A stretch of 64,000 bases of DNA from Lunularia cruciata (Eukaryota > Streptophyta > Marchantiopsida > Lunulariales > Lunulariaceae), in the NCBI GenBank assembly GCA_948567375.1, contig OX419761.1:31100243-31164242 (forward strand). Reading direction: 5' to 3'. The position numbers and the translations under genes are program-made. Every line of letters starts with the position of its first letter. The stretch's first letter is position 1. Positions 7,138 to 62,205 of the stretch are shown here, in pieces. Under the pieces are notes generated by a model that was not told where the DNA came from, ran no database searches, and saw only the letters and a list, made by a program, of their open reading frames with translations.

Positions 7138-7151
7138 CACTTCTTTGATGT
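7138..7151 (-). other. Primer-binding region of C1, complementary to its own LTR
   Basis: The minus strand reads ACATCAAAGAAGTG right after the LTR. The LTR itself contains CACTTCTCTGATGT (minus strand, about 7344-7331), complementary with one G-U pair. No tRNA-iMet primer site is present. Confidence 0.6.
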
Positions 7152-7601
7152 AATCAATTTGTTTACACCACTCAAATCAACCTAACTCAAATCATTATTT
7201 GATTTGTCACTCTATAAACTACCAACAACTAGGTATTGATTATAGTCAAACCACACCCACTCTAGCTAAAAGAATATAGGTGATGCTTGTTAGCCTTTGT
7301 CCACCATAGCTAAGAACTTGAGAGCTCAACATCAGAGAAGTGAGTTCTCTAGAGTTGCACTTCAGAAGTATACTCCTAGACTCAAGCTAGGTCTGAAACC
7401 CTAACGGTCCTACTGATGGCACATCCAATGGTGCAAACGGTGCAAAGTGATCATGGACTCCACCATGAAGTCAATACTCCAAACTCAAAATTTGACCATC
7501 AAAAGGTAGTCTATGAGTCTATTGCTAAAATACCTCTAACTACTATCATTGCAACTCTAGTGTCCGAGCAATCTAGATGCGACACTACAAATGGCATAAC
7601 A
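7152..7601 (-). repeat. 5' terminal block B of C1 (truncated-looking LTR)
   Basis: It corresponds to C3 42960-43398 and begins at exactly the same base type (TGTYAYGCC). The 107-bp block A found at the 3' end of C2 and C3 is missing here, as it is from the C3 5' end. Confidence 0.8.
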
Positions 7602-15748: not shown

Positions 15749-15762
15749 AAAAGGGGGAGGTT
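15749..15762 (+). other. Polypurine tract of T1
   Basis: AAAAGGGGGAGGTT directly before the 3' LTR; the primer for plus-strand synthesis. Confidence 0.8.
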
Positions 15763-35129: not shown

Positions 35130-35792
35130 TGTCATGCATATATACATAGTTACATAATATACATTGTTCTCAACATCATACAATATAGAAGCACAATTCA
35201 CACATAAGTCATACATGAACTCTAAAGTGCCACAATAATCAGTTCATTTTTCCACTCAAATCACACTCAAGTCAGATCTGTAATTGATCTTTCACTCAAC
35301 AATCTGCCAACAATCAGGCATTGATTACAATCAAGCCACCCCACTCTAGCTAAGAGACTTCATGTGACGCTTGCTTGCATTTGTCCACCATAACCATAAA
35401 CTCAAAGGCTCAACATCAAAGAAGTGAGCTCTCTTGAGCTACACTTCAAAGTTATACTCCTCTACTTGACCTAGGTCTCTAGACCTAATGGCACCGTTGG
35501 TGGCCCATCCGATGGTGCAAATGGTGCAAGTGATGGTGGGTCCCACCATATCATCAATAGCCCTAACATGAAATCTGACCGCCAACAAGTAGTACATGGG
35601 CAACTACCAAAATAGTGATGATTCCCAACACTACTACTCTAGCATCCAAGCAAACTAGCTTTGGCACTACAAATCTTGTGATAGCTATTGTGCATATATA
35701 CATTGCTACACAACATACATATTTGTCAATGACATACACTATAGAAAGATAACTCACACAAAAGTCATACATGAACTCTAAAGTGCCACAAT
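35130..35792 (-). repeat. 3' terminal A-B-A block of C2
   Basis: On the minus strand: A (35792-35686, starting ATTGTGGCAC), GC spacer, B (35683-35237), and A again (35236-35130, ending GCATGACA). Both A blocks are 107 bp, the same as in C3. The second A begins right after GATT, the position where the primer site begins at the 5' end of the family. Confidence 0.88.
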
Positions 35793-35879
35793 CACTTCCA
35801 TAGTTGGTGGTTAGTTTCCCTCTAACTCTAGATAGCAATCTACTCCAAGTATATGATATGTCTTATGGTGGGCAAATGT

Positions 35880-38800: not shown

Positions 38801-38960
38801 GCTCTCTCCATGTCACTATACTTGTAAGGACATCAACAAATTGGTGTAAAGCTTGTAAGCTCAATCCAAATAAAAAGTCCTTTTAGAGCATCCAAAATTT
38901 TCATACTAAAGGCAAAAAAAACTTGTGTAGCTCTTCAAGAACCTCCAAACTCTTTATCTT
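35880..38960 (-). pseudogene. Reverse transcriptase, RNase H, integrase and PHD finger of C2
   Basis: Fragments colinear with C3 49000-52040: RT active site CYIDDILVYN near 38350; RNase H KYTSYERECLASIW near 37800; integrase segment MGYWFNQQASLASFFPYFLL near 36580; PHD-like sequence MLVCDSCS near 35990. Many stops and frameshifts. It shows that the PHD finger belongs to the family and is not peculiar to C3. Confidence 0.8.
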
Positions 38961-39419
38961 TCCTCTCTTGTAAGCTTAGGTCCAATGTTTGACTCCCAAG
39001 TCAAACATTCCTTTATTATTGATCCTTTATTATTGATGTAAGAGTGGCAGATGTAGTGAATGGCTGCTACACTAGGCCCTTGGGAGCAATAATGTCCTGC
39101 TTCCAACCACTAGAGTCTCCAACCTTAGTGAAAAAAACTCTCTCTGCTCTAGTTGCAAACTCCATACGTCCTCTAGCTACATCTCAAGTAGACCAAGGGT
39201 GTAACCCAAGTAGACCAAGCTCACTTGGATGGAACCCAAGTAGACTACTCTCACTAGTAACCATTGACTATGTCCCAAGAATACCATGCCCACTTGGTCC
39301 ATCATCCCTCACATGTGTCTCAATTGTCTTGATAGGCACAAGTGTCCAAGTGGTGATGCCTATCAAGAGTATCTTACATTACCCTGCCAAGCCAAGACTC
39401 ACAATCTAGGTCAAAAATT

Positions 39420-40350
39420 CAGGTCCATAGCTTGACCTAACACCTAACACTTGGATGCATCTAACACTACTGTAACAATGGTTGTACCGGTATGAAAACC
39501 CATTGCCCGCTCCATCTCATCAATGTTGGGTTCCACCAATTGATGTAATTGTGAGTCCTAAACAAGTCCAAGACATCCCTCACAACAATCATGGGAGCTT
39601 GGGAAACTCATAAGTGTGAGTAGAGTGGCTCTAGGCTGTCCAACAAGGTTCACTACTACCATAGGTGACCTATCAACCATTACCATCATTTGAAATTGGT
39701 GTTCAACATTCAAAATTTCATCAATAGTAAGGTGGTCTAGTCATTGAATCTCATCATAAGCACAATGTAGAACTTCTTTAGGTAAGAGATTTGTCTACCA
39801 AAGAGAAAGATGATGAGCCCATGATTCCACTCTAGCTGCATCCAATAACACAATAGGTCTGATCCAATAATGGACCTTATGTGTACTCACCACCATCTGT
39901 GTACAAGAATCACCTATCAAAGTGACACTCTCCAAAATGTACATTGGAGAAATAATCTAATGAACCTGGAGATGTTGTAGTATAAGTAACATCTCCTGAA
40001 ACACACCACAATGGAGCTCTTGTAGACCTTAACCTTGACCATCATGAGTATGTTCCTAACATGGCCATCTAGAAATCACCAAATGAATGGGACCATGTCT
40101 CTCCAAATCTTGCATCCCCAACATAGAAATGTCTACTCATAGGGTCTTTAGGTAACCCTTGACTATTTAAATCAATAATAGCTCAAGATACCAATAGGCC
40201 AAGTGTGTCATATGATGTAGAGAGAGTTTCCTAGTAATCTCATTTCTCTCCATATACAAGTACCTTTGTACTTGTATATCTACTTGTAGTACCGTAGCTA
40301 GTCCAGGGCTAATCCCACCAAACAACTCCAATAGACATACTACCTCCATT
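39420..40350 (-). pseudogene. DNA methyltransferase domain of C2
   Basis: Motif I (CLLELFGGISPGLATVL) is encoded near 40345-40295, followed by VQRYLYMERNEITRKLSLHH; the remaining motifs follow in broken frames towards 39420. Order and spacing agree with C3. Inactive. Confidence 0.8.
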
Positions 40351-41330
40351 GGATATTGCCAAGCAACAAGTGTGGTATCCAAAAGTGACAAGGTAATAGA
40401 ATATAGAGGCTCATCCTCACATTGGTCTCTTGGTGGTACAAAGGTTCCACTCCAAGCTTGTTGCACCAGTTGATCTTTATGTTATTGCAATTCCTTCTCA
40501 AACTTCACAATAAAATATCCAAGGTGGATGGAACAATCCCATTCATACTCCAAATCTGAGTGATCCTTTAGTACTAGAGCATCTTCCATATGGGCATTAC
40601 CCTCCACTAAGTCATCTGGCCAAGTAACAAAACCATTGAAAGCTAAAACTGATGCCATGGTCTTTGATTGTAGTGAGCCAAGACTACCACTACTAAACAT
40701 ACTAGTAGGCAACATACCCATCCCTCACTTGACCTGGTCTATAGGAGACTATCTCCTCCAAATAGTCAATATTGAAACCCATGGCATATAATATTGCTCT
40801 ACCAACTAGGACATCATATGACTCTATTACTATTGCAATGGCCTGAGCTCTCACCACAAAGCCGTCAGTTGGATGACTGGGCTAAGCTTGGACAATAAGC
40901 TCTCCACATGTGATGTGCTATGTAAAACCACTACCTAGAGGTGTCTGGATGTGAAAACAACACCTCTCCATATCATTCTTTTGTAGCTCAAGATCAACAA
41001 CTACAACCTTCCTCAGCATAAGGGGCTATGCACTAGAGTCTAATAAGACCCTTTGTGGTGTATAGAACTTCCTTGAAGGTCCCACTAAACAAAAAATCCT
41101 CCTTTGGTTATCCATTAGGACAACTCTAGGTGTGAACCAAGCTCAAAGCACGTCTAACTAGTAACTCCTCCAACCTAGTTATTGCTACTTGCCATAAACC
41201 ATTGGTTGTTGAGCACATCCCATGCTCCTCAACCAAGTCATCTCTACTATCAACCACCTTTGCTTTAGAAGCAAGGACCATCATCCCTACTCTCACAAAG
41301 TGTAGTAGCCAATCGAAACACTAGAATTGG
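40351..41330 (-). pseudogene. Protease and linker of C2
   Basis: Colinear with C3 46640-47640. The active site reads VLLDSSA near 41040, keeping the Asp that C3 has lost. Interrupted by insert X at 41331. Confidence 0.7.
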
Positions 41331-41384
41331 GCCTATAATACCTATTTGTGCATGTATGTGTTATTGTGATATTTAGTTTGGTAT
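41331..41384. other. Left edge of insert X in C2
   Basis: Sequence of unknown origin between C2 and the T solo LTR; it begins CCTATAATACC at about 41334. No target duplication is visible at the two X/C2 junctions. Confidence 0.4.
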
Positions 41385-42124
41385 TGTAATACCAAGAGCT
41401 AGCCATATGATCTAGATGTGAAATTCAGTGTGGTAACATCTAGAATGATGTTATACATGATGGTCAAAATAGATAAGATAGAAGTATCAAAAAAAGAGTA
41501 TTTCTACTAATAGGATAGAAACCAAAATAGACTTGAGAACCTTAGAACCAATAGCTAGACATATGATTTAAAGGTGAGAATTGGTTTGATAACATCTGGA
41601 AGGATGTTACACATGATGGACTAAACAGATCAGAAAGAGGTATCACCAAAAGAGGACTTCTACTAATAGAGTAGGAACCAAAATATGCCTGAAATCTTTG
41701 AAGGCAATTTTGGAGGCCTAAACGCATGAACTAGGCCTAAAAAATGTGCAGATCCCTCCCCCAAGGGAAGAAAGGCTAGCCTTCCCTCCCCCCCTGCTTT
41801 GTCTTGTTGAGAGCTTTCCAACGGTACCTTACTCACGTGATTCTGAGATTCCTATAGGAAGATTCCCTAAAAGATTCCCTCCAGTCAAAGCTTGTTTGAC
41901 CAACCAGATAGGACCTAGACCAGGCATGTCACCCATCCAAGTAAGTAATCCAAGGGTGGATCTTGCTGACATGTCACCTATCTGTGTCCCTAATCCTATG
42001 GTGGAGTTTCCTTGGAGGAGATCCTCTTTGTCAATATAATAAAGAGAAGGTGCTCCTTTGGGGCAGCGAATGTTTGAGTGTGCAATCTGTGTTTTCTCTC
42101 TTCTCTTGTCCTCGGAGTATTATA
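41385..42124 (+). repeat. Family T solo LTR with target duplication GGTAT
   Basis: It starts TGTAATACCAAG and ends GGAGTATTATA; GGTAT is at 41380-41384 and 42125-42129. A TATA box (TATAATAAA) lies at 42035-42043. The first 370 bp hold two tandem copies of a U3 unit (breakpoint near 41570). No internal sequence, so it arose by recombination between two LTRs. Confidence 0.95.
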
Positions 42125-42129
42125 GGTAT

Positions 42130-42959
42130 TCAAGTTCTTGAGCAATATTATTATATACTGATAAAGGATGGTTCTACATTAGTCATGATTAGCTAAATTT
42201 AGTCATAGTTAAGATAGAGGAGAATTTATTTTAGAGGAAATAGAAAATGTATTGATTTGGTATTATTCTTAGGTGTTTGGCTTTGAAGAAAGAGTTGAGA
42301 ATTCTTGGACCCACAAACCTTTTTGCTTTGGATTCTTCCATAGTCCAAGGATAGCCCATGTGAAGGAATCCTTGACTTAGTGGGTTGGTTCAAGATAAGA
42401 CCACATGCTTAAGGGAATATTCCCTTAAGTATGGATATTCCTTTAGACTTTTAGCTTTATTTGACTTTTAGTCTAGTAACTTGAGTTACTCGTGTAATTA
42501 GTAGCTTTGGTACATAATTATTTCATAAGTATATTCCCTAAGGGTGAAGAGGTATTCATCATCCTTTCATTTTCAAATATCTCTCTCTCATTGAGTTCTC
42601 TAGTGAGCAATGGTTTAAGTCTTGGAGTGTTAGATTTGGAACAGTATGATGGAGTTCGAGTTCCTTGCCTTCTTAGTCCATGGTGAGTTGTCATACTTTG
42701 CTTTTCTCCCTCTAGGAACACACAAGGTGCTTAGCTGTGGAGCCTATAGATCAAAGGCTTGGGGTAACCTATCACTATTGGTTTGAGAGTGCATAGATCC
42801 CAACCAACAGAACCCTTCACTCTAGGTTTTGGTATTCTTACGATCGATCAGAATAGTAACGGATGACCTAACTTTTCATCGTACCACGCACTCCTGGTCT
42901 ATTGGTCATCACTTGCAACATTGCCAATGAGAAATACACAACAATCCTAGAAGGAAAGA
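42130..42959. other. Insert X, segment before C3
   Basis: No coding sequence was recognised. It contains a perfect 22-bp palindrome (CTTAAGGGAATATTCCCTTAA plus G) at 42408-42429 and LTR-like TATA/ATTCCC words, so it may be part of another LTR element. Confidence 0.4.
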
Positions 42960-43398
42960 TGTCACGCCATTTGTAGTTCCACGTCTAGATGCTCGGACAT
43001 TGGAGTTCCAGTGATGGTAGTTAGAGTTATTCTAACAGTTTCTCAGGGACTACTTTTTGATGGTTAGATTTTGTGTTTGGGGTACTGACTTCACGGTGGA
43101 GCCCACCGTCACTTTGCACCGTCAAGTGTGCTGTCAGCGGGACCGTTAGGGTTTTAGGGCTAGCTCGAGTCCAGGGGGTATAGTTTCGAAGTGAGCTCTA
43201 GAGAGCTCACTTCCCTGATGTTGAGCCTTCGAGTTCCTAGCTATGGTGGACAGAGGCCGGCGAACGTCACCTGGATTCTCTATGCTTGAGTGGGTGTGGC
43301 TTGACTGTAATCAATGCTTAGTTGTTGGCAGTTTATAGAGTGACAGATCAAGTACTGATCTGAGTTGAGTTGGGTTGAGAATGTTAAGCAATCTGATT
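42960..43398 (+). repeat. 5' terminal block B of C3
   Basis: It starts TGTCACGCC and ends AATCTGATT right before the primer region. It matches 52317-52764 with about 24 differences, all transitions, and one 9-bp indel. An 8-bp-stem hairpin (GTGAGCTC-TAGA-GAGCTCAC) lies at 43191-43210 just before the segment complementary to the primer region. Block A is absent at this end. Confidence 0.93.
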
Positions 43399-43413
43399 AC
43401 ATCAGAGAAGTGA
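43399..43413 (+). other. Putative self-priming primer-binding site of C3
   Basis: ACATCAGAGAAGTGA is the exact reverse complement of TCACTTCTCTGATGT in the 3' LTR copy (52572-52586) and differs by one base from the 5' copy (43208-43222). The complementary strand would have its 3' end next to the U5 end, the geometry needed to prime minus-strand DNA. No tRNA match is as good. Confidence 0.6.
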
Positions 43414-43518
43414 AGTCAGGGGGAAATCGGGTGCAGGAACGTTGAATGTTGGTGGTATCTCCAAGCTCGGTGGATCGTGGTAGCTCGATTCAGGTTCTGT
43501 GTTTCCCTAGTGTGCAGA

Positions 43519-43885
43519 GGTGGAGTTGGAAAAGCTCTTCTCATGAAATTGTGATTTGGAAAAACCCGTTTTGTCAATTTGGCTCGAGTGGAAAGTTAGC
43601 GAGGGATTTGGCGGACATCCATCTTTAGGGTTTACGTCAGATTTTGGGCCAAAATTGGAGGAGTTTTGCTGTTTGGCCAGATTTGGAGAAGAAAGTGAAA
43701 TTGAAGGTGGAGTTGGAAAGCTCTTCTCATGAAATTGTGATTTGGAAAAACCCATTTTGTCAATTTGGCTCGAGTGGAAAGTTAGCGGGGGATTTGGCGG
43801 ACATCCATCTTTAGGGTTTACGTCAGATTTTGGGCCAGAATTGGAGGAGTTTTGCTGTTTGGCCAGATTTGGAGAAGTTTCGCTA
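43519..43885. repeat. Tandem duplication in the C3 leader, period 186 bp
   Basis: The block GGTGGAGTTGGAAAAGCTC at 43519 recurs at 43706; copies differ at few positions. C1 has only one copy, so the duplication is recent. Confidence 0.9.
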
Positions 43886-44107
43886 GTTTGGAGGAGTTTC
43901 GCAGATTTGGAGAAGTTTCACCAATTTTGGAGGAGGTTCGAAGTGGCAACAAGAAAGGGTTTAGGGTTCAGGCTTCGAGGCATAGGGCTGTGGGCTATGA
44001 GAGGCTACGAAGGCCTAGAAGGGCCAGCAAGCCAGCTTGCTGGCGTGAGGCTAGCTAGTTTAGTGTAGATCTTGGTCATTGGTTGGCAAAATCTGCCTTT
44101 CTTGCTA

Positions 44108-44178
44108 GATTGTGCGCAATAGGGTTTGACCCCTAGATCTCTTGTTCCTAGACTAGTGCCCTAGCCAATTGGTCCACC
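44108..44178 (-). ncRNA. tRNA-like segment antisense to the C3 leader
   Basis: The minus strand has CCAATTGGCTAGGGCACTAG (D-arm/A-box-like) and GGGGTCAAACCC (T-arm/B-box-like) at tRNA distance, with a possible anticodon stem between. Conserved in C1 (6406-6478, plus strand). The acceptor stem is not convincing, so it is a tRNA-derived or SINE-like relic rather than a working tRNA. Confidence 0.4.
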
Positions 44179-44641
44179 CTCACTTGTTGTCATAGTGACT
44201 GTGCCACTGTTATCTATACACATGTAGCTTTGGCTAGGAGAGGCAGTTTGATCCTATTCTTGGTGATCCTGGTAGCTTAGGACTTAGATACAAATTACTC
44301 TTATGTCAAATGCCAAATGGTGGCAGAGTCAGTCCCATGTTGTGTTATGAGATGGAAGGTTTTCATTTAGAGTTCTTGTGATTGGATCCCCTCCATTCTC
44401 TACTTCTTGTTTGTGCACCACGTTTGTGTGAGGTGCCCTGACTTTTGAGCGTTGGTGCTCTAGTGTGCTCTCGGTGGTGAGGCTGGAGTGATGACCAGTC
44501 AAACTACCTTTGTTTCTCTCCGGTGAGACAGGAAGTGATGACCTGTAGACCGTGAGAGTGCATGTTATGATGGCAGGTTACAGGTTGCCCTTCCCCTAGT
44601 GTAGTTATCTTGGTAGAGTTACATTAGTGGGTGGTGTTTAG

Positions 44642-46543
44642 TTGGTGTTGGCACGTGGTGGTGTTGGCACTTGGTGGGGTACTAGCGATTGCGACTTGTG
44701 GTTGCAGTTGGTGGTTCGGGTTTGCTGTTGCAGTTACCTGGTCACGACGGAGTTCTTTGGAGATTCCAGAGGAGTTAGCCCTGTAGTACGCAGTGGGTTT
44801 ACTCGGAGTGGTGCTCGGTATCAGCCGGTATCTCAGGTCCCAGTGAGGGAGGAGATTGACTCTGAGTTGGAGTTCGACACAGGAGCTGATTCAGTTGAGA
44901 GTGCACTTGGTGTGTCCGCACCGTTGTTGTGGGACATGGATGAGATTTATGGGGCCTCCAAAGGCCCTAGGCGTTACTCTGGTATAGTGGGTACCATTGA
45001 GTTGGATGACTTCATCCAGGAGTTTGATAGTTGGTGTGATTTGCAGCAGATGCGGAACCCGACTTTGTTCACACCCTTCATGGCATGGAAGGGGTTGTTT
45101 CAGCACTTGGAGGGTCCGCCGATGGACGACTACCATGAGTTCAGGAGAGCTCATTTGGAGGAGATTGAGTTATGGAGACAATATTGGTCTCCACACTATG
45201 TCTCCATCACTTTAGGCTCGGTGGCCAGGAGTAGATCGGTTGTACCCACGAGTTCTAGCTCGAGTAGTGTTGGTGGAGCTAGTGGAGGTGCACTAGCTGG
45301 AGATAGTGCTACGACGAGTGGAGGTACCGTTGCAGGAGGTGGTGTGGTACCGGGGTTTAACCCCATGGTGGAGTTCTTCCTATGTTTGAGGCAGAACTAC
45401 CAGGGAGTGCGGACTGACAAGCTGAGGAGCTTGCAGGAGTTCTAGCGGAAGGCTGGAGAGAGCCTACGCGAGGCATATACTCGCATGAGGCGGCTGATCA
45501 GTTTCACTCAGGGAGTTATTGAGGCCCAGGCAGTCCAGTTTTGGTATGGGATACTGGACAAGGAGTTGCGACGTAGAGTTCGTGATGCTACGTTGTTGCA
45601 GGCTACTTCGCCCACTTTGGCAATAGTCTTTGGTTTGGCTGAGCGTATTGAGCTCAACATGGTGGAGGAGAGAGTGGTGACAGTTGGATTTGGTAGAGAG
45701 ACCTCATCCACGGTTGTGACTTCTTCTAGAGTGCAGTAGAGTGCACCACGCCCAGTTGGTTTTTGAGGACAAGGTGGATAGCCCAGATCCTATGGAGCGA
45801 GTGGAGGGCCTAGTGGAGTTAGACCCTTACCCTCATTTTCGGGTCAGCAGCAGCCAGTGAGTGGTGGTGTTTCTTGTTGGACTTGTGGTGGACCTCACCA
45901 TAGGAGAGAGTGTACTCAGGGCAGTGGACCTGATACCTCTGGTGCATCACAGCCAGCACAGAGGCAGTGTGAGCATTGCCACAGATTTGGTCACACTAGT
46001 GACCGGTGTTTTGACCTACACCCGGAGTTACGGAGTGGTAGGGCTGCTATGGCAGGTAGTAGAGGAGCTCCAGTTCATGGAGGACGAGGTGGTAGAGGTG
46101 GTGGTAGAGGATCTACACCTAGTAGGGGTGCGGTACCTACCCTTACTTCTGACACAGCTATGGCTACTCGGATTGAGCAGTTGGAGCAGAGATTGGCTAG
46201 TATGGCTATTGCTCAGAGGAGATCAGATTCGGGTGTTGAGGCTTCCACCTCATATGCTGGTGATAGAGATGCTTTGGACTTCATGTGCGGAGCAGCACAA
46301 GTAGATGCATCTGCAGCAGTGACTAGGAGTGCAGTTTGTGCTCCAGAGCCTAGAGGAGCATCAGTGGAGTTGGACCCACAGAGAGGAGAGGTTGGGAGAC
46401 AGGTCAGACTTCCCCAATCTTTCATGCTATCTGAGGCATTACAGACGACATCCATGGTTCCTAGATGTCCCAGTGCAGGTGTGGTAGGTGGTGATGGAGT
46501 ACCTGATGGAGTACTTGCTAGTCAGCCACCTGCTACTACATAG
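44642..46543 (+). pseudogene. Gag of C3 with two zinc knuckles
   Basis: A single frame (2) broken by TAG at 45443, 45737, 45779 and 46541 and TGA near 45764. The N-terminal part (VREEIDSELEFDTGADSVES) is of unknown type; the core FWYGILDKELRRRVRDATL at about 45540-45600 is the retrotransposon gag signature. Two zinc fingers follow: CWTCGGPHHRREC (45878 on) with slightly unusual spacing, and canonical CEHCHRFGHTSDRC (near 45970). A Gly/Arg-rich stretch and a likely coiled coil (MATRIEQLEQRLASMAIAQR) come next. The true start codon is uncertain. Confidence 0.85.
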
Positions 46544-46555
46544 ACTGAGTCTAGC

Positions 46556-47640
46556 ATGATGTTGGGGGCGGCTCAGCTGATTATGCGGCATCCTTTATTT
46601 TCAGCCAGTGACATGTTTACATTGGGCGTTGATCCAGCCCCAGTGTTCCGGTTGGCTGCTACGTTGTGTGAGAGTAGGGATGGTGCAGTTCCTACTACTA
46701 GAGTAGAGGTGGTTGGTAGTGGAGCTGACTTGGTTGAGGAGCATGGGATCCGTTCAGCGACCAGTGGTTTATGGCAGGCAGCAGCGCCTAGACTGGAGGA
46801 GTTGCCAACTAGACCGGCCTTTGAGAGAGCGCGGTTTACACCTGGTGTTGTCCTATTGGATAACCAGAGGGGGATCTTTCGTTTAGTGGGACCTTCAGGG
46901 AAGGTCTATACACCACAGAGAGTCTTGTTAGGCTCTGGTGCGCAGCCCCTTATGTTGGGGAAGGCTGCAGTTGTTGGTCTGGAGTTACGGAAGACCGATG
47001 TGGAGAGGTGTCCATTTCAGATCCAGACATCTCTAGGTGGTGGTTTGACACAGTACATCACACGTGGGGAGCTTGTTGTCCAGGTTCAGCCTGGTCATCC
47101 GACTGATAGCTCGGTGGTGAGAGCTCAGGCTATTGCGACAAAAGCTGAGTCATATGATGTGCTAGTTGGGGGAGCAGTGTTATACCCTATGGGTTTTAGC
47201 ATTGAGTATTGGGAGGAGACAGCCTCTTATAGACCTGGTTGGCAGTCTGGTGAGGGACGGGTATGTCGCCAACCAGTACGCTTCAATAGTGGCAGTCTTG
47301 GCTCACTACAGTCCGGGACCATGGCAACATCAGTTTTAGCTTTCAGCGGTGCAGTTACTTGGCCTGGTGACTTGTTGGAGAGGAATGCCCATGCAGAGGA
47401 TACTCCAGTACCAGAGGAGATCACTCGGCTATGGAGTACGAGTGGGATTGTTCCATCCACCTTGGATGTTCCATTGTGGAGTTCAGAGGAGGCATTGCAG
47501 CAGCATGCAGATCAGTTGGTGCAGCAGGCTTGGAGTGGAGCCTTCGTACCATCAGGGGATGAGTGTGAGGATGAGCCTCTAGAGGCGATTGCTTTAACAC
47601 CTCTAGATACTACACTCATTGCTTGGCAGTATCCAGTAGA
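46556..47640 (+). pseudogene. Protease and linker of C3
   Basis: The frame continues from gag. The protease active site reads VLLGSGAQPLMLGK (Gly codon at 46931-46933); C1 and C2 keep Asp at this place, so the catalytic Asp is lost here. The C-terminal protease block YDVLVGGAVLYPMGFSIEYW follows. About 130 residues of linker (SLGSLQSGTMATSVLAFSG to WSGAFVPSGDECEDEP) then lead straight into the methyltransferase; the linker is conserved in C1 and C2 and its function is unknown. Confidence 0.85.
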
Positions 47641-48600
47641 AGGGATATGTCTATTGGAGTTGTTTGGTGGGATCAGCACCGGACTAGCTGCGGTGTTACA
47701 GGCGGGTATCCGAGTACAGAGGTACTTGTATGTAGAGAGAGATGAGACTGCTAGGCGAGTCTCTCTACATCATGTGGCACACTTGGCCTATCGGTATCCG
47801 GAGTTATTACCGATGTCAGAAGTCAAAGGTTACCAGAAGGCCTTACCATGAGACATTTCCTTACTGGGGGCGCATGACCTAGAGAGACATGGGCCTATTC
47901 ACTTGGTGATTTCTGGATGGCCATGTCAGGGACATACACGTGCAGGCCGTGGTTTGGGTCTTCAGGATCCTTGTTCTGGTGTGTTTTGGGAGATGTTATG
48001 GATACTACGACATCTCCAGGTTCATCAGTCTGTTTCTCCAGCTTACCTTTTGGAGAACGTTCCATTGATGGGTGATTCTCGCACTAGAGTGGTGGCGAGT
48101 ACACATCAGGTCCATTCATGGATGGGACCTGCTGTATTGTTAGATGCAGCCAGAGTGGGATCACGGGCTCATTGCCTTCGTCTTTGGTGGACAAACCTCT
48201 TACCCAGAGAGGTTCTACAGCGTAGTTATGATGGGATTCAGCGACTAGACCACATTCTTGTTGATGATATCTTGGATGTTGGACGTTAGTCTCAGATAGT
48301 GGTAGTGGCTGATAGGTCACCTATGGCAGTGGTGAACCTAGTTGGACAGCCTAGAGCTGCATTTCCCACACTCATGAGTTTCCCAAGCTCTCATGCTTTT
48401 TGAGAGGGAGGACCTGGACTTGTTTGGGACTCACAGTTACAACAGTTGGTGGAGCCCAATGCTGATATGAGAGAGCGGGCGATGGGTTTTCGCACCGGTA
48501 TTACCGCTGTTCCAGTAGTGTCAGAGGCATCCAGGCGTCAAGTGTTAGGTTAGGCTATGGACCTGAACTGTTTGACTTGGATTGTGAGCCTTGGTTTGGC
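47641..48600 (+). pseudogene. DNA (cytosine-5) methyltransferase domain of C3
   Basis: In frame with gag and protease. Motif I LLELFGGISTGLAAVL (S-adenosylmethionine binding), acidic motif II YVERDE, motif IV GWPCQGHTRAGRGLGL with the catalytic Cys (near 47925), motif VI YLLENVP (48046 on), a motif VIII-like SRAHCLRLWWTNLL, then FPTLMSFPSSHAF, MGFRTGITAVP and a motif X-like end LGxAMDLNCLTWI. The order I-IV-VI-VIII-X is unpermuted, so it is DNMT3/DNMT1-like rather than plant DRM, whose motifs are rearranged. The short spacing and CW/NL pattern look closest to DNMT3. Stops: TGA 47849, TAG 48287, TGA 48403, TAG 48551. The enzyme would methylate cytosines, plausibly of the element or its targets. 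Confidence 0.88.
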
Positions 48601-48960
48601 AGAGCAGCGTAGGATGCGCTTGATAGGCATCACCACTCGGACACTTGTGAGCCCTGTGCCTATCGAGACGATTCAGGCACATGTTGGGGGCGATGGACCG
48701 AGTGGACATGGTATTCTTGGGACACATCCAGTAGCTACGAGGGAGAGTGGTCTACTTGGAGTCCATCCAGGTGAGCGTGGGCTACTTGGATTACACCCTT
48801 GGTCCACATGGGATGCAACCAGAGGACTATGGAGCTTGCAGCCAGAGTGGAGGGAGTTTTTCACACAGAGGTTGGGACCTCTAGTGGTCGGGAGCATGAC
48901 ACCATTGCTCCCAAGGGCCTAGTGTAGCAGCCGGTCAGTACGTCTTCCACTCCTACTACA
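48601..48960 (+). pseudogene. Methyltransferase-RT linker of C3
   Basis: About 110 residues with a short repeat (GLLGVHPGERGLLGLHPW) and no recognised domain. Related sequence is present in C2 near 39100-39350. A frameshift lies between here and the RT. Confidence 0.55.
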
Positions 48961-50770
48961 GTTACAGAGGATACTTGGGAGCCAGATCTTGGACCCAAGC
49001 TTACTGGAGAGGAAAGACGGAAGGTTTGGAGGTTCTTGAGGAGTTACACGAGTTGTTTTGCCTTCAGTATGAAGGATTTGGGTGCTCTGAAGGGACCTGG
49101 TATACGAATTGAGCTAACTAGTGACACACCAGTTTTCCAACGTCCTTATCGATATAGTGAGATGGAGAGGACATTGATTCAGAGCCGGAGTATTGACCTT
49201 TTTGAGGCTGGTTTGGTGGAGATTTCACATGGAGAGTATGCATCAGCGACAGTGATGCCAGCCAAGAAGGATATGCATGGCAACTATACAGATAGGCGGA
49301 TGTGTGGAGATTACCGTCCTATCAACCAATAGACCAGGGCTGATCGGTATGCCATGCCTACACCGGAGGAGATTTTTGATGCGATTGGGCATGCAAAGGT
49401 CTTCAGTACTTTGGATCTTCGAGCGGGATATCATCAGTTGCCGATCAGGGAGGAGGATAAGTCCAAGATAGCATTTTGGGCTATTGATCCTCACGGCAAG
49501 GATGTGTTATATCAGTGGAGGTTCTTACCATTTGGGTTGAAGAACGCTCCTGCTGAGTTCCAGAGGGTCATGGATAAGATCCTAGCTGGATTGGATTTTG
49601 CTCGGTGTTATATTGATGACATTTTGGTCTATAGCACTATTGTGGAGGAGCACGAGAGACAGTTGTTGGAGGTGTTTGAGAGGTTGAGATCTCATGGACT
49701 CAAATTACATCCTGGGAAGTGTAGGTTCTTCCACGAGCAGGTTGAGTATTTGGATCACACTATCTACCCCGGAGGTCTTGGTGTTCAGCAGACCAAGGTG
49801 GAGGCTATTGCACGTATTCCTTGGCCTACGGATGTGAGCAGAGTGCGAGCATTCCTTGGGTTGGCAAACTTCTATCACCGTTATGTTAGAGGATTTAGTG
49901 CCATTGCCAAGGTCTTGACGAAGCTGACCAAGCTTACACAGGAGTGGTGTTGGGGAGATGAGCAGGAGAGAGCTTTTGTAGAGCTCAAGGAGAGGTTGAC
50001 ATCTGCTCCTATTTTGAGGAGACCGATCAGGGGACGACCATTTCAGGTTCACACTGATTGGAGTATGTTGGGGCTTGGAGCGGTGCTCACCCAGCATGAT
50101 GATGAGGAGAAGGAGTTTGTGGTGGCCTATGCTAGTCGCTCCAACAATTCAGCGGAGGCGAAGTATAGTTCATATGAGGGAGAGTGCTTGGCAGCAGTTT
50201 GGGCAGTAGCACATTTCCGATGTTACCTATTTGGTAACCCCTTCACTCTCATCACTGATCATCAGCCGCTGAAGTGGTTGATGGAGTCTGACAAGCTTTC
50301 AGGGAAGCTTGCATGATGGGCTCTGATTTTACAAGAGTATGATTTTTTGGTTGTTTACAGACCTAGAGTGGTGAACCGTGATGCAAATGGGTTGAGCAGA
50401 AACCCATGTCCCAGCCAGCAAGATCAGACCGGAGCACATTGGCATGGTGAGACAGATGAGGAGATGGTGCCAGGTTGGCATGCATCGGCCTTTCTGTGTA
50501 TATTTGCAAAGACTTTGGTGGTATCTCTCTCAGCGCATAGAGGAGGAGTTATTGAGGTCACAAATCCAGAGAGTGAAGATATTGGTATAGTTCAGCGAGA
50601 CATTCATGATGATGTCTTAGTGATGGACTATCTTTGCACTGGTGTTGTGGGTGGCACAGTTGGGGCCAAGGAGAGAGACCGTGTTCTTCAGCGAGCCAGA
50701 CGGTTCAGATTGGAGAGTAGACACCTTTTGCGTGTATGGGAGGATGGTAGAGTGCGAGTAGTACCACTTC
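48961..50770 (+). pseudogene. Reverse transcriptase and RNase H of C3
   Basis: Frame 1. The RT begins about FAFSMKDLGALKGPGIRIEL and has substrate-binding CGDYRPINQ, FSTLDLRAGYHQLPI, FGLKNAPAEFQRVM and the catalytic CYIDD (YIDD at 49609-49620). RNase H has Asp in HTDWSMLGLGAVLT, Glu in YEGECLAAVW and Asp in LITDHQPLKWL. Stops are TAG 49330, TGA 50314 and TAG 50776. The sequence type is Ty3/gypsy. Apart from the stops the catalytic residues are intact. Confidence 0.93.
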
Positions 50771-51899
50771 CATCATAGAGACCACAGTTGGTCCGTCATG
50801 CTCATGAGGAGCTAGGACATTTTGGAGTAAAGCGTACATATAGCTTACTCCAGAGTCATTATTGGTGGCGCGGTATGCAGACCGAGGTACAGCAGTTTGT
50901 TGCCAGATGTGTGGTTTGTGACCAAGTTAGAGCATCATTCAATGCTCCTACGCCACAGTTACACCCATTACCTATTATGGGATTGGGTTACCGTTGGAGT
51001 TTGGACTTGCCGGACCTTTACCGCTGACTGTGAGACATCATCGGTATGTTTTGGTGATGGTGGAGCACTTCTCCAAGTGGATTGAGTTGGTGGCACTTCT
51101 TGACAAGTCTAGTGAAGGGACAGCTTACTCGTTCCTGGATCGAGTTCTTAGTCATTTTGGTGCACCAGCTGAGGTTTTGACTGATCAGGGTACAGAGTTC
51201 TTGGGAGAGTTTCAGGTCTTGTGTGACAAGGCTTTGATTGATCATCGTACTACATCCCGAGATCACCCTGAGGCAGATGGCTTAGCAGAGAGAGTGGTTC
51301 AGACGGTGAAGAGAGGATTGCAAAAGTATGGTTTGCAAAGAGGCCACTTGGGAGATTGGGATCTCCAGTTACCTTGGTTGGCCATGGGCTATCGGTTCAG
51401 CCGGCAAGCCTCCTTAGCATCCTTCTCTCCATACTTTCTACTCTATGGACGAGATCCAGATTTACCTGCAGCCATTCGTTGAGATGCTACTATAGTTTTG
51501 GACTTGGATGACCCCGATGTATGGATGAGCGCATGTTCTCAACGGGTAGAGATCTTTCGGAGAGTGATGCCGGTGGCCTTTGAGAACTTGGCGATTGCTC
51601 AACATAGAGATACTTTATGCTATGCTACCATTCAAGGAGGAGGTTATAGACCCTTGATCCGTCGATTTCATCCAGGCGACTATGTATATCTACAGCAGAC
51701 AGCACCGACGACACTTGATGTTTCTACAGGCCGCACTATCTTGAGAGTGCGCAAGGTTTTGCCATCTGGAGTCCTTGTGTTAGAAGGACGTGATGGTGTT
51801 GTTTGGAAGGATCATGTGCGCAATTGTGCGCCATGCCACCTTCCAAACATTGATGGTACTATGGACCCAAGCTTGGCACTTGTACGTGCAGGCTTGAGG
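50771..51899 (+). pseudogene. DDE integrase of C3
   Basis: Zinc-binding part HAHEELGHFGVKRTYSLLQS with CVVCDQ (about 50800-50930, frame 1). A one-base deletion near 51008 shifts to frame 3. Catalytic Asp in WSLDL (51004-51006), Asp in LTDQGTEF (51183-51185) and Glu in GLAERVV (51288-51290); 34 residues separate the last two, one fewer than the usual 35. TGA at 51480. A C-terminal segment with YVYLQQTAPTTLDV and an SH3-like/GPY-like region leads into the PHD finger. Integrase inserts the DNA copy, consistent with the short target duplication. Confidence 0.9.
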
Positions 51900-52040
51900 T
51901 GTATGTTATGTGGCTCTTCTGGTGGAGCTGCTACTATGTTAGTGTGTGATAGCTGTTCGAGAGGATGGCATATGGCATGTATGACTCCTCCTCTCACGGT
52001 GGTTCCTCAGGGACAGTGGTTATGTCCTAGATGTACTTGA
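51900..52040 (+). pseudogene. C-terminal PHD finger of the C3 polyprotein
   Basis: C4HC3 pattern: CMLC, then CDSC, GWHMAC, and CPRC just before the TGA at 52038. All eight zinc ligands are present, with the Trp two residues before the last Cys pair (QWLCPRC). PHD fingers read histone H3 tails. Here it takes the place where chromoviruses carry a chromodomain, so it may steer integration. It is in frame with the integrase core. Confidence 0.92.
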
Positions 52041-52195
52041 CCTATAGCTAGTTCATTCTTTATATGGTATAGATTGCAGACAGGCGACTAACGATGGGGC
52101 TCCATAGCACCCGGCCTCCTGATCTTTGCCCATTAGAGTGTATACCATATACTTAGAGTAGATGGCTATCTGGAGTTAGAGGGACCTAACCGCCA

Positions 52196-52207
52196 GCTAG
52201 GGGGGCA
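52196..52207 (+). other. Polypurine tract of C3
   Basis: GCTAGGGGGGCA directly before block A (ATTGTGGCAC at 52208). It marks the start of U3 as made by reverse transcription. Confidence 0.65.
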
Positions 52208-52871
52208 ATTGTGGCACTTTAGAGTCTATGTATGACTTATGTGTGAGTTGTGCTTCTATAGCATATGATGTTGACAGCGATGTATGTTGTGTAGCGATGT
52301 ATATACGCACGACAGCTGTCATGCCATTTGTAGTTCCGCGTCTAGATGCTCGGACATTGGAGTTCCAGTGATGGTAGTTAGAGTTATTCTAGCAGTTTCT
52401 CAAGGACTACTTTCCGATGGTTAGATTTTGTGTTCGGAGTACTGACTTCACGGTGGAGCCCACCGTCACTTTGCACCATTTGCACCGTCAAGTGTGCCAT
52501 CAGTGGGACCATTAGGGTTTCAGGGCTAGCTCGAGTCCAGGGGGTATAGTTTCAAAGTGAGCTCCAGAGAGCTCACTTCTCTGATGTTGAGCCTTCGAGT
52601 TCTTGGCTATGGTGGACAGAGGCCGGCGAACGTCACTTGGATTCTCTATGCTTGAGTGGGTGTGGCTTGACTGTAATCAGTACCCAGTTGTTGGCAGTTT
52701 ATAGAGTGACAGATCAAGTACTGATCTGAGTTGAGTTGGGTTGAGAATGTTAAGCAATTTGATTATTGTGGCACTTTAGAGTCTATGTATGACTTATGTG
52801 TGGGTTGTGCTTCTATAGTGTATGATGTTGACAGCGATGTATGTTGTGTAGCAATGTATATACGCACGACA
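52208..52871 (+). repeat. 3' terminal A-B-A block of C3
   Basis: A 52208-52314, GC 52315-52316, B 52317-52764, second A 52765-52871. Offset between the A copies is 557 bp. The point 52764/52765 (GATT|ATTGTGG) joins the U5 end to the U3 start exactly. The A/B junction 52307-52324 is an 18-bp palindrome with one mismatch (GCACGACAGCTGTCATGC), and the element's outer ends are its two halves. A TATATA lies at 52300. Confidence 0.93.
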
Positions 52872-54887
52872 AAGAACCTAAGCGAAATGCCCGCATACCA
52901 ATCCAAACCAACTGGGCATACAAACAAGCATACAAGCACGGAGATGATCCAATCATAAGAATCAAGCAGTAACTCTATGTGTTTTTTTGTCAAAATTGAG
53001 CTTCATAGCCTTCTTGTTCTATCTTTAAGCCAATTTCAACCAGTACTCCAAGCTTCCTCCAATATGTACTTCAGCCTTCACCCAATTTGTACTCCAAGTG
53101 GAGTGATCTTATGATCTTATTGACAAGGAAAATCCTATATAACTTAGATGGGCATAACTTTCTTATGTAACTTATATTACAATGATCTAGAATTGAATGG
53201 AAATCCTGTAAGATAAGCTTTCCAATGATTCAAAATAACCCACAATCTGATCACTATAACTCCCTTGACAAGCTCTCAAACTAGGCCAGTTTTTTGTAAT
53301 TTTTACCCTAATTTCAAGATCCCTAATTTAGGACCCTAAATTAGGGATTTTGAAATTAGGGATTTTGCTCCTAGTTCTGGGTAATTCTTCCTAGATTTAT
53401 AGATCAGAGATGCATCTAATCCTCAAAAAAACTCCAGCAACCTAAAATTCTTAGTCATAGATATAAAAATAGGAAAATAGATAGTCAATCATGATAAAAG
53501 TTAGAAATGCTCTCCCGAGCTTATAAGAGTATTTTTAGTAGAGTTTGTTGCATCAGCTCTCACTCTCCATGGACCCAAAGTCAACCAAATTTTTCACAAT
53601 AGCTTATTGTGCCCTTGTCTAAACCTCTATAAATTTTAGTAGCCTAATCCAACCCCAAACCCTAGATATGGATCAATTCTTGAGCTAGGCTAACTTGTGA
53701 GCTCTACAAACCCAAGTATGCTCGATCCAAGACCTTGAATTGTATATTTGAGCAATTCCCATAAAACCTCTGTAAAGAAGTGCAAATCCTAGCCACCAAC
53801 AATACTAGAAAATTTTATAAGGAGATTTGGACCAGAACTTCAAGAGTGACCAAATCTTCAAACCTGATCAAAATGTCATCTCCAACTCCTCACTTTCCAA
53901 AGCTCCAACTTCAATTGGCCAGATCTATTTTGAGAATAATCTAAATCTAAAATTTCTTGGGCTTATCATTACAAGAACTCTATCAACTCACCAACATAAT
54001 TGATAGATCATGAAGATGTTTCATGAAGCTCTCTGAATAATCTATTTTAGGCTCATGGGTATGAATTCTACCCCCTTGACTTAATCAATCATATCTCCCA
54101 AAGAATTTAATCAAATCACTCAATTCTAGGCTTCAAATTATATCCTATTAGCTCCTCTCTCCAACCATAGTCCTCTCTTTCCAAATTCCTTCCTCAAACT
54201 CCCTCAATGATTGAAAAACTCCCAACTTCTTCTTGGAATCCAATCTCTTGCAATTTTGTCATTTAGCCTCTTTACTTGTTGACAAGTGGACCCCACAACT
54301 CCATCTTGAAGCTCATGAGCAAAATTGAATCATTTTCCAACTACAAGAGCACATACATTATCAAGTCCTATACTTGCTTGTAAGTAAGCACCAGAAGGAC
54401 AATAGAATCTAGGTTTTCCATCATCAACTCTATGAATACCGCCCTAAAACGTACCACCATCCAATCCTATAAGCCATTGCAGTGTAGAATTTGAAGCCTA
54501 AAGAGAAAATAATTTGGGAATGGTAGATCAAAAGCATGGGACATCTCTTAATTGATTGCTTTATTTGATACCCGGTCTCCATGCTCTGCTACAACTCTCA
54601 CTCTCAACGTCCCCTTCCTACTCGAGACTCCTCCAATTAAAACATGCCTTCCATCCATAAAACTCTCCACTATCTTTATACATAAGAACCTTCAAAGAAT
54701 ACAAGGCCATAATCCAAGTGGCCACTCGTATACATGTACATAGATTGCTCACATGGCAATAGCTCAATTGTAGGATCAGTCATTCAACCTAACCACATCA
54801 AGGGCTACACAAACCACAACATGATAGTGTTACCATAATAGCTATCAAAGGTTCATTTTGAGTGAGAGACAAACTGGCTTATAAGTC
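52872..54887. other. Insert X, segment after C3
   Basis: AT-rich, no gene recognised. A hairpin with about 23-bp arms lies at 53310-53358 (AATTTCAAGATCCCTAATTT and its reverse complement). The segment ends in CTTATAAG just before C2 resumes at 54888. Confidence 0.45.
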
Positions 54888-55835
54888 AACTCCCAATGTA
54901 AACATATCATTGGTTAAGAACAAAGGAATTGCATAATCAATTGAGTTGTCTCCAACATCATGCTAGATTCAATCTATGTAGTAGTAGGTAGTTAAATAGC
55001 ATCTAGTCTATCATCCACTCTATCATCACCTACCACACTTGCACTAGGACATCTAGGAGTCATGGATGTTGTTTGTCATGCCTCAAAGAGTGTGAAAGAC
55101 TAGGAAGTTTTGCTTGTCTACCAACCTTTCCTCTTTGTGGGTCCAACTCTACTGATGCTCCTCTAGGCTCTAGAGCATGTAATATACTCCTAGTCACTAC
55201 AGCAAATGCATCTACCTATACTAATCTATACATAAAGTGAAATATGTCTTTATCACTAACATAAGAGGTGGAAGCTTCAACACCCAAATCTGATCTCCGC
55301 TAAGTTATGGCAATGCTAGCCAATCTCTGCTCCAATTGCTCAATCCAAGTAGCTATAGCTATATCAAAAGCAAGGGCAATTACTATGCCTCTACCAGGTG
55401 TGGGTCCTCTACAACCTTGTCCTCCATAACCTAGATCCCCTCTACCACCTGCCATTGCAGCCCTACCACTCCATAACTTTAGGTGAGGTCAAAGCATCGG
55501 TCATAAGTGTGACCAAATCTATGGCAATGGTCACATTGTCTCTATGCTAGCTATGATGCACCAAAGGTATCATATCCATTGCCTTAAGTCCACTCTCTCT
55601 TGTGGTGAGGTCCACCACAAATCCAACAAGCAACACTACCACTCATTGGTTGTTGTTGACCTAAAAATGAAAGTAAAGGACTAGTTGCATTAGGCTCTCC
55701 ACTCATTCTATAAGATCTGGGTTGTACACTCTTCCCTTGGAAGCCAACAAAATGTGGTGAAATTTACTACACTTTATAAAAAGTAATAGCTATGGATGAG
55801 GTTTCTCTATCAAATCCAAATGTCACCATTCTCTC
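54888..55835 (-). pseudogene. Gag C-terminal part and protease start of C2
   Basis: Colinear with C1 3910-4870 and C3 45690-46620; begins with the sequence that follows 41330 in C1 order. Zinc-knuckle region near 55500-55640 is recognisable. Many stops. Confidence 0.75.
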
Positions 55836-56237
55836 TGTAAAAGACCAAGACCTAGGAGAGAAATAGGAAAATGGAAACTCACATTGGGACATTTGAATGA
55901 GGGAAAACTCCAAATGCCTAGCATGAGCTTTGGCTCTTTTATCTATATGGAGCATATAAGGCTCTTGAGAAGCTTCTCAAGAAGCTTCTTTGAGCCACTT
56001 TCTTGGAGTGCAAGCCAAGTTAACTGGGAAGCTTCTCAAGAAGCTTCCTTCTAGAAGCTATTTACTTGGCGTACAAGCAAAGCTAGTTGGAAGCTTCTAG
56101 AAGTTACCTGCTTGAGATGCAAGCTAGAAGCTTCCCAAGAAGCTTACTGGATACTTTTGGAATATTTTAGGCTAATTTGTCTTATTTGCTACTTCGTTAG
56201 CTCTGCTAACTTTGTCGCTAAACTCCATATTGTTACA
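55836..56237 (-). repeat. 3' LTR of E2
   Basis: Minus strand TGTAACAATATGG...CTTTTACA. Heat-shock-element units remain (GAAGCTTCTAGAA at 56090-56102), followed by a weakened TATA box near 55940. Confidence 0.9.
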
Positions 56238-56269
56238 TATTCCTCCATCGCTAGTTGGTGACGTCCTTA

Positions 56270-57650
56270 TCACCAATGAAGCTTTGAACTTTTGGAGGGC
56301 AAGTTGTGCATTTTGGAGATGAGAAAGAGGTTCCCATGTGGCATCATGAAGGAGATACCATTTCCAAAGGACCTTGTGCTCCGTATGTTGTCAATGGCCT
56401 TGTTGAATATGGCAACGTGCAAGGATACAATCAACTTTGTACTCCTCATGATCATTGATAGGGATAGGACTAGGGGGAGGTTGGACTCAAGAGGAAAAAG
56501 AAGAGGGTTTGGAACAAAGAGTTTCAACTTGGAAACACGAAAGACAGGATGGATGCACATATGACAAGGCAAGGCAAGTCGATAAGCAACAAGAGAGACA
56601 ATTTGGGTGATATCAAAGGTTCCTATCCAATTAGGGGCAAGTTTACAAACTTGGGTATCAAGTGGAAGAGGGAGGTTATTAGATGAGAGCATGATCTTAT
56701 CACCAACTTGAAAGCTAAGATCGGCGACAGTGATCCGCATATTGTTTTTGCCAATTTTGAGCAACAAGGAGATGAGATTTGGCTTGTTGGAGGGATTGGG
56801 AGATGGTAGTCAAGAAGGTGGAAGTATGAGGGACATGAGACGGGGGAGGAGCAAGAAAGGAATCTGGAACAAGTGGGTCTTGGTCAAAATTGAGAAAGAA
56901 AGGAGAGAATCTGGTGCTTGCCTGTTTGGAATTGTTGTATGCAAACTCCAAAATTGCAAGACATTCATCCCAATTGGTATGGTGAATGTTGACAAAGGCA
57001 TGAAGCATATCTTCCAAGGTGCAATTTGCACGTTCAATTTGTCCATCAGTTTGAGGATGATATGCTATGGACAAAGCAAGCTTGGTGCCAAGTATCTGGA
57101 AGAGTGCTTGCCAAAACTTTCCAATGAAGCAAGGATTACGGTCGGAGATGAGTACACGCAGCATCTCATGATGCTTGAATATATTATCAAAGTAGAGTGA
57201 TGCCAAGGTTGGAGCATCCACAGTATCAACCGTTGGTGCCAAATAGATTTGCTTACTAAGCTTATCCACAAACATCACAATAGTTGTATGACCTTACTTT
57301 GTCTTCGGCAAGGAGGTGATGAGATCTAAGCTCACATGTTCCCAATGAGTAGTTGGAATGGGGTCTGGCTAAAGGAGTCCACTCAGCTTTTGGTTATTGG
57401 CCTTGTTGTGTTGATAACTCTCACATGATTGGAAAAACTCCCAAACATCTTGTGCCATGCTGGGCCACCACCATTGGCGTTGGAGGGTACCCAAGGTCTT
57501 TTCCACACCCATGTGACCAGCTATTGGTAGATCATGGGCTTCTTGAAGGCGCACAAGTCAGAGATCACCTTTGGCTAGAACATAGATCTGGTCCTTATGG
57601 AATAGAAGGTCTTCCTTGAAGAAGAAGGTGTTGTACTTCTTGTTTCATGT
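56270..57650 (-). pseudogene. Integrase with chromodomain of E2
   Basis: Zinc-binding part HDLPIAGHMGVEKTLGTLQR with CESYQHN (57530-57400); core with DKLSKQIYLAPT, VLISDRNPCF and YHPQTDGQIERAN (57280-56960), keeping the second Asp and the Glu. After a frameshift, KLAPNWIGTFDI is the GPF/Y-like region, and in another frame LWKWYLLHDATWEPLSHLQN (about 56375-56310) is a chromodomain end. This identifies family E as chromovirus. Confidence 0.88.
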
Positions 57651-59790: not shown

Positions 59791-60240
59791 CTCACTAGAG
59801 TACTCCTTGGCAATAACTCAATCTTGAAGGGCATATCATGATTAGAGGTAATCCTTTTGGCAGATCATCTGGACACACGTCCAAAAAATCCTTAACTATC
59901 TGATCAACCATTGCTTGATGAGGCTCTTGGCCCTCCTCAAATTGTCCTTGTGCAATTGGCTTGATCCACATTGCAAAAACAGACTTGTCTCTCCCAAAGC
60001 TTGCTCTATGGCTACTTCACTAACAAACTTCTCATCTAGAGACTCATATTTCTTCAAAGCTTGCTCCATGGCTTATTTCCTAGCAAACTTCTCATCTTGG
60101 GACTCATCTCCCTTCAAGGTTTGCTCTATTGCTACCTTCTTGACAAACTTCCCATCTTGGGACTGACTATTCTTAAGTGTCTTACTTAGAGGTGCCAGAT
60201 AGCCTAATTGGAAATTCCTACCTTGGTGTTGTACTTGAAT

Positions 60241-60580
60241 TTATTGTTGGTTCCAAACAAATTGAACCTTATGATGTTCAAGCCAAGGTAGTCCTAGAAT
60301 GACATCATAGTGTAGAGGTGCCACTACAAACCTCATACACTCCAAATACTCCTTCCCAATCTTGAAGGTCATAGGATGCAATGTATGGAATGCAAAACCC
60401 TTTCTACCATCTTCCATCATCAATCTACTTCCAATTACTGGCTTGATAGGAATACACAATTATGTTGTTACTTGCATAGATATACAATTCTTTGAACTTC
60501 TAGAATCAACCAAAATCCTACAACCCCAATTAGATATTGTACCTTGTAAGTGAAGCAAACTTGCATAGGTCGAGCCTTCA
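60241..60580 (-). pseudogene. Aspartic protease of E2
   Basis: Matches the E1 protease at 459-812; YDVILGLPWLEHHKVQF is near 60300. The active-site region lies in a disrupted frame. Confidence 0.75.
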
Positions 60581-60702
60581 ATCCCATTGGAACTAATCAA
60601 GCTCCCAGTAGGCGGCTTGAAATCTCCTACTAGGATTTCTTGTTTCCTTGATCATTCCGCTCCACAAACTCCATTTGGGCAACTTGTCAAGGTCACCTAT
60701 TC

Positions 60703-61535: not shown

Positions 61536-61805
61536 GGCTACTACTCTATCTCACAACTCCTAATTTATCTAATTTATTAACACACATATGTAGCACATCC
61601 ACCTTTCTCCATAAGTTACAACTGGAAGTATCAAGGGCTCCTCAAACAAGGTGATCATATGTAGAAAATCATGCCCAATGCACAAGGTGATGAATTGTGT
61701 GAATCAATGCTTGGGTAGTACCTAGACACAAAACTCCCAATGATTTGGCAGAAGTGGATTTGGTGGTCCATAAATTCTATCCATCACATCCTTGCTCTGA
61801 CACCA

Positions 61806-62200: not shown

Positions 62201-62205
62201 CTTTC

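Follow-up and report, generated by a model that had tools for sequence, protein, structure and literature searches.

A decayed, methyltransferase-bearing gypsy element of Lunularia cruciata with split direct repeats and a putative circular integration precursor

KnitGypsy-Dnmt3 of the alga Klebsormidium nitens was reported by de Mendoza et al. (2018) to combine a DIRS repeat structure with gypsy domains (legend of Fig. 4; PMC5890265); its priming, its joints and its route of integration are not discussed in the portions of that account covered here. A 2025 paper citing that work places DNMT3, for streptophytes and dinoflagellates, in 'LTR Copia and DIRS' elements (PMC12344493), and the words 'gypsy', 'bryophyte' and 'liverwort' do not occur in its main text. 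In the open-access literature, searched by title and start of abstract, nothing on the mechanism considered below or on bryophyte elements was found among the matches listed. Here we describe a retrotransposon family, called C, in a stretch of 64,000 nucleotides from the bryophyte Lunularia cruciata (GenBank assembly GCA_948567375.1, contig OX419761.1, positions 31,100,243 to 31,164,242 of the forward strand; 'the window' in the following), which holds three copies (C1, C2 and C3), all decayed, of which only C3 is complete. C3 is likely to be a self-priming Ty3/gypsy retrotransposon that was inserted from a circle with two long terminal repeats (LTRs), opened by its own DDE integrase at a site designated A/GC/B. 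A first-pass annotation of this DNA had held that no gypsy element of this kind was described, which is wrong in view of KnitGypsy-Dnmt3; the layout is already known, and what is added is the reading of primer, joint and cleavage, together with a bryophyte member.

C3 extends from 42960 to 52871 on the forward strand, in the order B1, leader, gag, pol, purine tract, A1, GC, B2 and A2, with methyltransferase, reverse transcriptase, RNase H, integrase and PHD finger following one another in pol. Repeats, joints, primer complementarity and domains were observed directly, and the block boundaries were verified base by base. The features are:

42956..42959 (strand not applicable): 5' copy of the target duplication, AAGA, or AAAGA (5 bp) where TGTC...GAC is taken as the ends
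42960..43398 (+): B1, the 5' terminal block, beginning TGTC and adjoining the target sequence directly; 94.5% identity to B2
43179..43182 (+): TATA, 30 bp 5' of the predicted RNA start
43208..43221 (+): initiator and self-primer segment in B1, matching the primer site at 13/14; predicted RNA start at 43209
43399..43412 (+): primer binding site, which starts at the first base past B and is complementary to a segment of B
43518..43877 (+): in the untranslated leader, a stretch of about 174 bp duplicated in tandem, 97.7%
44642..46543 (+): gag-like region with internal stops and, by eye, CCHC-like motifs
46544..48289 (+): pol start and C5 cytosine methyltransferase, broken by a stop; PF00145, E 2e-5 on 47852-48286
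48928..50316 (+): two open pieces coding for reverse transcriptase and RNase H; PF00078, PF17919 and PF17917 on 49333-50316
50779..51482 (+): DDE integrase, its H2C2 zinc domain and its core separated by a frame change; PF17921 (Integrase_H2C2), PF00665
51483..52040 (+): C-terminal part of the integrase with a PHD finger (51900-52040, the C-terminus of pol); PF00628, E 9.5e-12
52199..52207 (+): polypurine-type tract directly 5' of A1, as read from sequence in C3 alone
52208..52314 (+): A1, the U3 start of the reverse-transcription LTR, ending GACA
52307..52324: A/GC/B near-palindrome, proposed integrase cleavage site; 8/9 pairs
52315-52316: GC dinucleotide between A1 and B2
52317..52764 (+): B2
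52765..52871 (+): A2, the 3' terminal block, joined exactly to B2 and ending GACA
52872..52875: 3' copy of the target duplication, AAGA

The first-pass annotation had proposed the B...A-B-A layout, an exact joint of the U5 end to the U3 start at 52764/52765, an 18-bp near-palindrome at the A/B junction, a primer region after the 5' B, a polypurine tract before the first A, a DDE integrase and a 4-5 bp target duplication, all of which were recovered here; the GC dinucleotide between A and B was missing from it. The two A blocks of C3 are identical at 103 of 107 positions (96.3%) and the two B blocks at 415 of 439 (94.5%, with 9 gap columns), and the substitutions in both pairs are all transitions (4/4 and 24/24, respectively), as expected for methylated, decaying DNA. 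With TG...CA as the ends the target duplication reads AAGA; with TGTC...GAC it reads AAAGA. A complete LTR is absent from the 5' end, where A is missing in both C3 and C1, and a relaxed BLAST search found no A block in the window beyond the four of C2 and C3 (next match E 0.73). At least one stop or frame change was found in each of the gag, methyltransferase, reverse transcriptase and integrase regions, so this copy is dead. Three scanned pieces of the gag-like region gave no Pfam match. The methyltransferase matched 29 sequences of solved structure, all of them Dnmt3A, Dnmt3B or Dnmt3C, the best match being weak (E 0.0012).

The 14-base primer site of C3 has its reverse complement in B2 (14/14) and in B1 (13/14), the primer site of C1 matches its own B at 13/14, and the B of C2 matches the C1 site at 14/14. 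In first-order Markov simulations of B, such matches were reached in 1/4000 (B1), 0/4000 (B2) and 1/4000 (C1) cases. The self-primer segment is located at the invariant CTCACTTC, and all four B copies carry, without change, GTATA at 30-31 bp before a TCACTTC that is likewise invariant. B1 would contain promoter, R and U5, and these motifs suggest that the RNA probably starts at the B initiator and primes itself. The positions of the primer site, behind B, and of the purine tract, in front of A1, would make A-GC-B the LTR produced by reverse transcription. Tf1 has been shown to prime itself, and the same has been proposed for Tj1 (PMC4600332); in plants, the Tcn1 and TAR lineages are predicted to do so (PMC6317226). 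Two other assignments were rejected: a reverse-transcription unit of B+A (with TG...CA at both ends), since the primer site directly follows B in both available 5' ends, and priming by transfer RNA, for which the site has no TGG and no clear match by eye to a tRNA consensus, self-complementarity being far stronger. An inverted repeat with perfect 11-bp arms and a 4-base spacer lies in B1 (43188-43213) and overlaps the predicted RNA start.

The near-palindrome at the A1/B2 junction has the core GACA-GC-TGTC (CA/GC/TG), and among the 9,895 18-mers of C3 three reach a score of 8 and none a score of 9. The GC is present between A1 and B2 and absent from the integrated ends, which begin TGTC and end GACA; the integration frame B...A would be a circular permutation, by 107 bp, of the A+B frame of reverse transcription. 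DDE integrases are considered to act on the ends of linear complementary DNA (cDNA). Foamy-virus integrase cuts both strands of the palindromic two-LTR joint behind CA, and the 2-nt 5' overhangs so formed disappear upon integration (PMC1180852); the tetrameric integrase of human immunodeficiency virus 1 (HIV-1) also cleaves its own two-LTR palindrome (PMC1905944). The geometry of A/GC/B in C3 matches cleavage of a two-LTR circle joint by the foamy-virus enzyme.

In the cycle proposed for C3, the RNA start, the priming, the circle and the cleavage are predictions from these sequence signals. Transcription would start in B1 at about 43209, and the 5' end of the RNA would anneal to the primer site beside B1 and prime minus-strand DNA; with a plus-strand start preceding A1, the product would be a linear DNA with one A+B LTR at each end. 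Exact joining of these ends would give a two-LTR circle with the B/A joint. The DDE integrase would then recognise the palindromic A/GC/B of one LTR and cut after CA on both strands, the GC forming 2-nt 5' overhangs; such cuts would leave the recessed ends that an integrase requires, and the overhang would be lost afterwards. Insertion of the opened circle would yield B-internal-A-GC-B-A between two copies of a 4-5 bp target sequence. A two-LTR circle opened at the A/B site had already been put forward in the first-pass annotation, and it is supported by the self-primer at the end of B, by the TATA and initiator, and by the likeness of the repeats within C3. The broader claim, that this is a streptophyte family with a DDE integrase that must pass through a two-LTR circle and whose site lies inside the LTR, appears to us evenly poised. 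If it holds, linear cDNA would not be insertable as such, and every insertion would carry a fossil of the circle joint. The family would then exemplify in nature an integration route through the circle junction, once proposed for retroviruses and later set aside.

The other two copies bear on whether the layout is a property of the family. C2 lies on the minus strand (35130-41322) with 79.5% identity to C3 over 6,266 bp; its 5' end lies outside the window. C1 is also on the minus strand and is inserted in a copy of a dispersed repeat, R. Their informative termini are:

35130..35792 (-): 3' end of C2, A-B-A, with A1 at 35792-35686, B2 at 35683-35237 and A2 at 35236-35130
7138..7601 (-): 5' end of C1, B1 at 7601-7152 followed by the primer site at 7151-7138, inserted in repeat R

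The B2/A2 joint of C2 is exact (GATT/ATTGTGG, U5 end to U3 start), as in C3. Identical 107-bp A blocks had been claimed for C2 at first; the A-B-A order and the length of both blocks stand, whereas the blocks are alike at only 88/107 positions (82.2%). Homology between C2 and C3 stops exactly at the final base of A2. A layout shared merely through segmental duplication, raised earlier as a concern, does not apply, the two copies lying on opposite strands with 79.5% identity and 3' flanks that are unlike by eye. The first base of C1 (7601) is the same B base at which C3 starts, as had been noted before, with no A between B and the target DNA. Seven further R copies were matched by BLAST, and the insertion point of C1 is uninterrupted in four of the four that were aligned there, so the absence of A from this 5' end is real. 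The same layout thus fits two of two available 5' ends and two of two available 3' ends.

Repeat R occurs in at least eight places, over up to about 740 bp (7603-7790, 8526-9106, 9724-10284, 15761-16326, 19999-20714, 41385-42121, 57898-58639 and 63570-64000), and within some copies a unit of about 156 bp recurs in tandem. C2 is interrupted by a 13.5-kb stretch (41323-54885) that contains C3 and about 3.6 kb of other DNA, including one R copy; two insertions split C2, whose probable continuation lies in 54886-55835 and 62249-63560. A further element, E (55836-62248 and 1-2448), interrupts C2 and C1; its longer copy is bounded on either side by a repeat of about 400 bp, and it looks like an ordinary LTR retrotransposon.

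How the repeats compare within and between copies bears on a replication of the DIRS/PAT type. In that model, RNA would span B1 to A2, an A1-GC-B2 splint would circularise the cDNA, and the parental B2/A2 joint would be copied. This would yield the same circle, and the final layout equals the split repeats of PAT/Ngaro elements, that of KnitGypsy having been called DIRS-like (PMC5890265). The model predicts that A1 resembles A1, and A2 resembles A2, across copies. In the DISCRIMINATING result, however, the A pair of C3 is 96.3% alike, versus 83.2-86.9% for A between copies (83.2% for A1-A1 and 86.9% for A2-A2), and the B pair is 94.5% alike, versus 73.5-81.9% for B between copies. Within C3, the A pair and the B pair each look as if they had been homogenised recently, as expected if both copies are regenerated from one template per cycle, which the two-LTR route demands; gene conversion inside C3 could mimic the high likeness of A1 to A2. 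The DIRS/PAT-type model also leaves without reason the position of the self-primer site exactly at the end of B and that of the purine tract directly before A1, and we regard it as unlikely. Still less probable is a tandem concatemer, or read-through of linear DNA, in which the integrase would cut two A/B sites one unit apart. Identical ends and joints would result, and a circle and a head-to-tail dimer are indistinguishable in the present data; two cleavages and the same exact B/A joint would be required, and no head-to-tail pair occurs among the three copies of the window. Least probable, and very unlikely, is an ordinary LTR family in which C3 and C2 were rearranged by recombination or blocks were lost by chance in C1, C2 and C3. 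All three copies are decayed, and element E with its ordinary LTR layout lies in the same window; against this, three separate insertions agree, with exact ends of the form TG...CA and, in C3, a target duplication, and an algal element with the same domains was reported to have the same layout (PMC5890265).

Several observations weigh against insertion from a two-LTR circle. Such a circle has two A/B sites, and the product of the other cut, B-A-B-internal-A, was seen in none of the three copies; luck would give three one-sided cuts out of three in 1 in 8 cases, unless cutting favours one of the two sites or no other form is able to spread. The evidence comes from three copies, all decayed and C3 alone complete. 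In C2 the A/GC/B palindrome is degraded (4/9 pairs), and the A blocks are less alike mutually (82.2%) than they are to those of C3 (83.2-86.9%); C2, which lacks the homogenisation signal, is probably too old to tell. The purine tract preceding A1 is clear in C3 only and different in C2. The predicted free fold of the RNA does not pair its 5' end with the primer site (expected pairs 0.0008 for C3 and 0.09 for C1); when the first 252 nt are folded at minimum energy, the 5' end has other pairing partners in both copies, in C1 the bases just past the primer site.

Among 8000 scored candidates, those sharing most words with the pol start and 0.55-1.75 times its length, 76 proteins matched. The 28 that carry an organism name are all from bryophytes (Marchantia polymorpha 21, Sphagnum 4, Calypogeia fissa 3), with none from K. 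nitens among the matches of this length-filtered search. Eight of the 76 were scanned for domains, giving PF00145 in six, a PHD finger in one and nothing in one; like C3, a Marchantia relative of the pol start (P0154) ends in a PHD finger. Among the best 120 of 741 matches, a Calypogeia fissa protein shares 79% identity with the reverse transcriptase of C3 and a K. nitens protein (P0084) 53%; the latter need not belong to the methyltransferase-bearing element. In viral contigs, neither a relative of the C3 reverse transcriptase nor a match to the B/A joint pattern was found, and a slightly shifted form of that pattern had no match in genome contigs. Four viral contigs matching a B-segment pattern were rejected as unrelated (no tblastx row against the window; no tblastn match for eight C3 frames; 17 blastn rows of at most 41 bp), and the one inspected, L004, reads like phage. 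Elsewhere in the window, an open aquaporin frame of 290 codons (25618-26490, minus strand; PF00230) has its nearest named relative in Marchantia paleacea (61%).

In C3 the ends of reverse transcription and those of integration differ and both are exactly defined, which makes circular precursors testable from genome sequence alone; if the proposed cycle is true, the origin of split repeats without a tyrosine recombinase would be explained. Like ordinary Ty3/gypsy elements, C3 has a DDE integrase and lies in a target duplication of 4-5 bp (checkable in C3 only); unlike them, it does not have a complete LTR at each end. Tf1/Sushi elements have ordinary LTRs. The primer site of C3 is complementary to the putative start of its RNA, which recalls the self-priming design of Tf1, Sushi and Tcn1, where that site matches the 5' end of the element's own RNA (PMC4600332; PMC6317226); C3 is set apart from these elements by its split repeats and methyltransferase. 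Foamy virus and HIV-1 resemble it in having a palindromic two-LTR joint that is cut by integrase, in foamy virus after CA with the loss of two bases (PMC1180852, PMC1905944); their palindrome is the LTR-LTR joint itself, whereas that of C3 lies 107 bp inside the reverse-transcription LTR and its LTR-LTR joint is intact once integrated. PAT, Ngaro, DIRS and VIPER elements have comparable split direct repeats, A...B-A-B (PMC6681497), but they use a tyrosine recombinase and have no DDE integrase (PMC3783388), unlike C3 with its DDE integrase and target duplication; no tyrosine recombinase (PF00589) was found in nine scanned pieces of C3, with 48554-48922, 48928-49332 and 50317-50778 lying outside the scan. 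With KnitGypsy-Dnmt3, C3 has in common gypsy reverse transcriptase, RNase H and integrase domains and a Dnmt3-like methyltransferase in pol; compared by description only, the A-coding-B-A-B of the algal element equals the B-coding-A-B-A of C3 after relabelling. C3 differs in its bryophyte host and in the PHD finger that ends its pol, the term 'PHD' being absent from the main text of PMC5890265, and with it, gypsy elements that combine a methyltransferase with split repeats are recorded in a bryophyte as well as in a charophyte alga.

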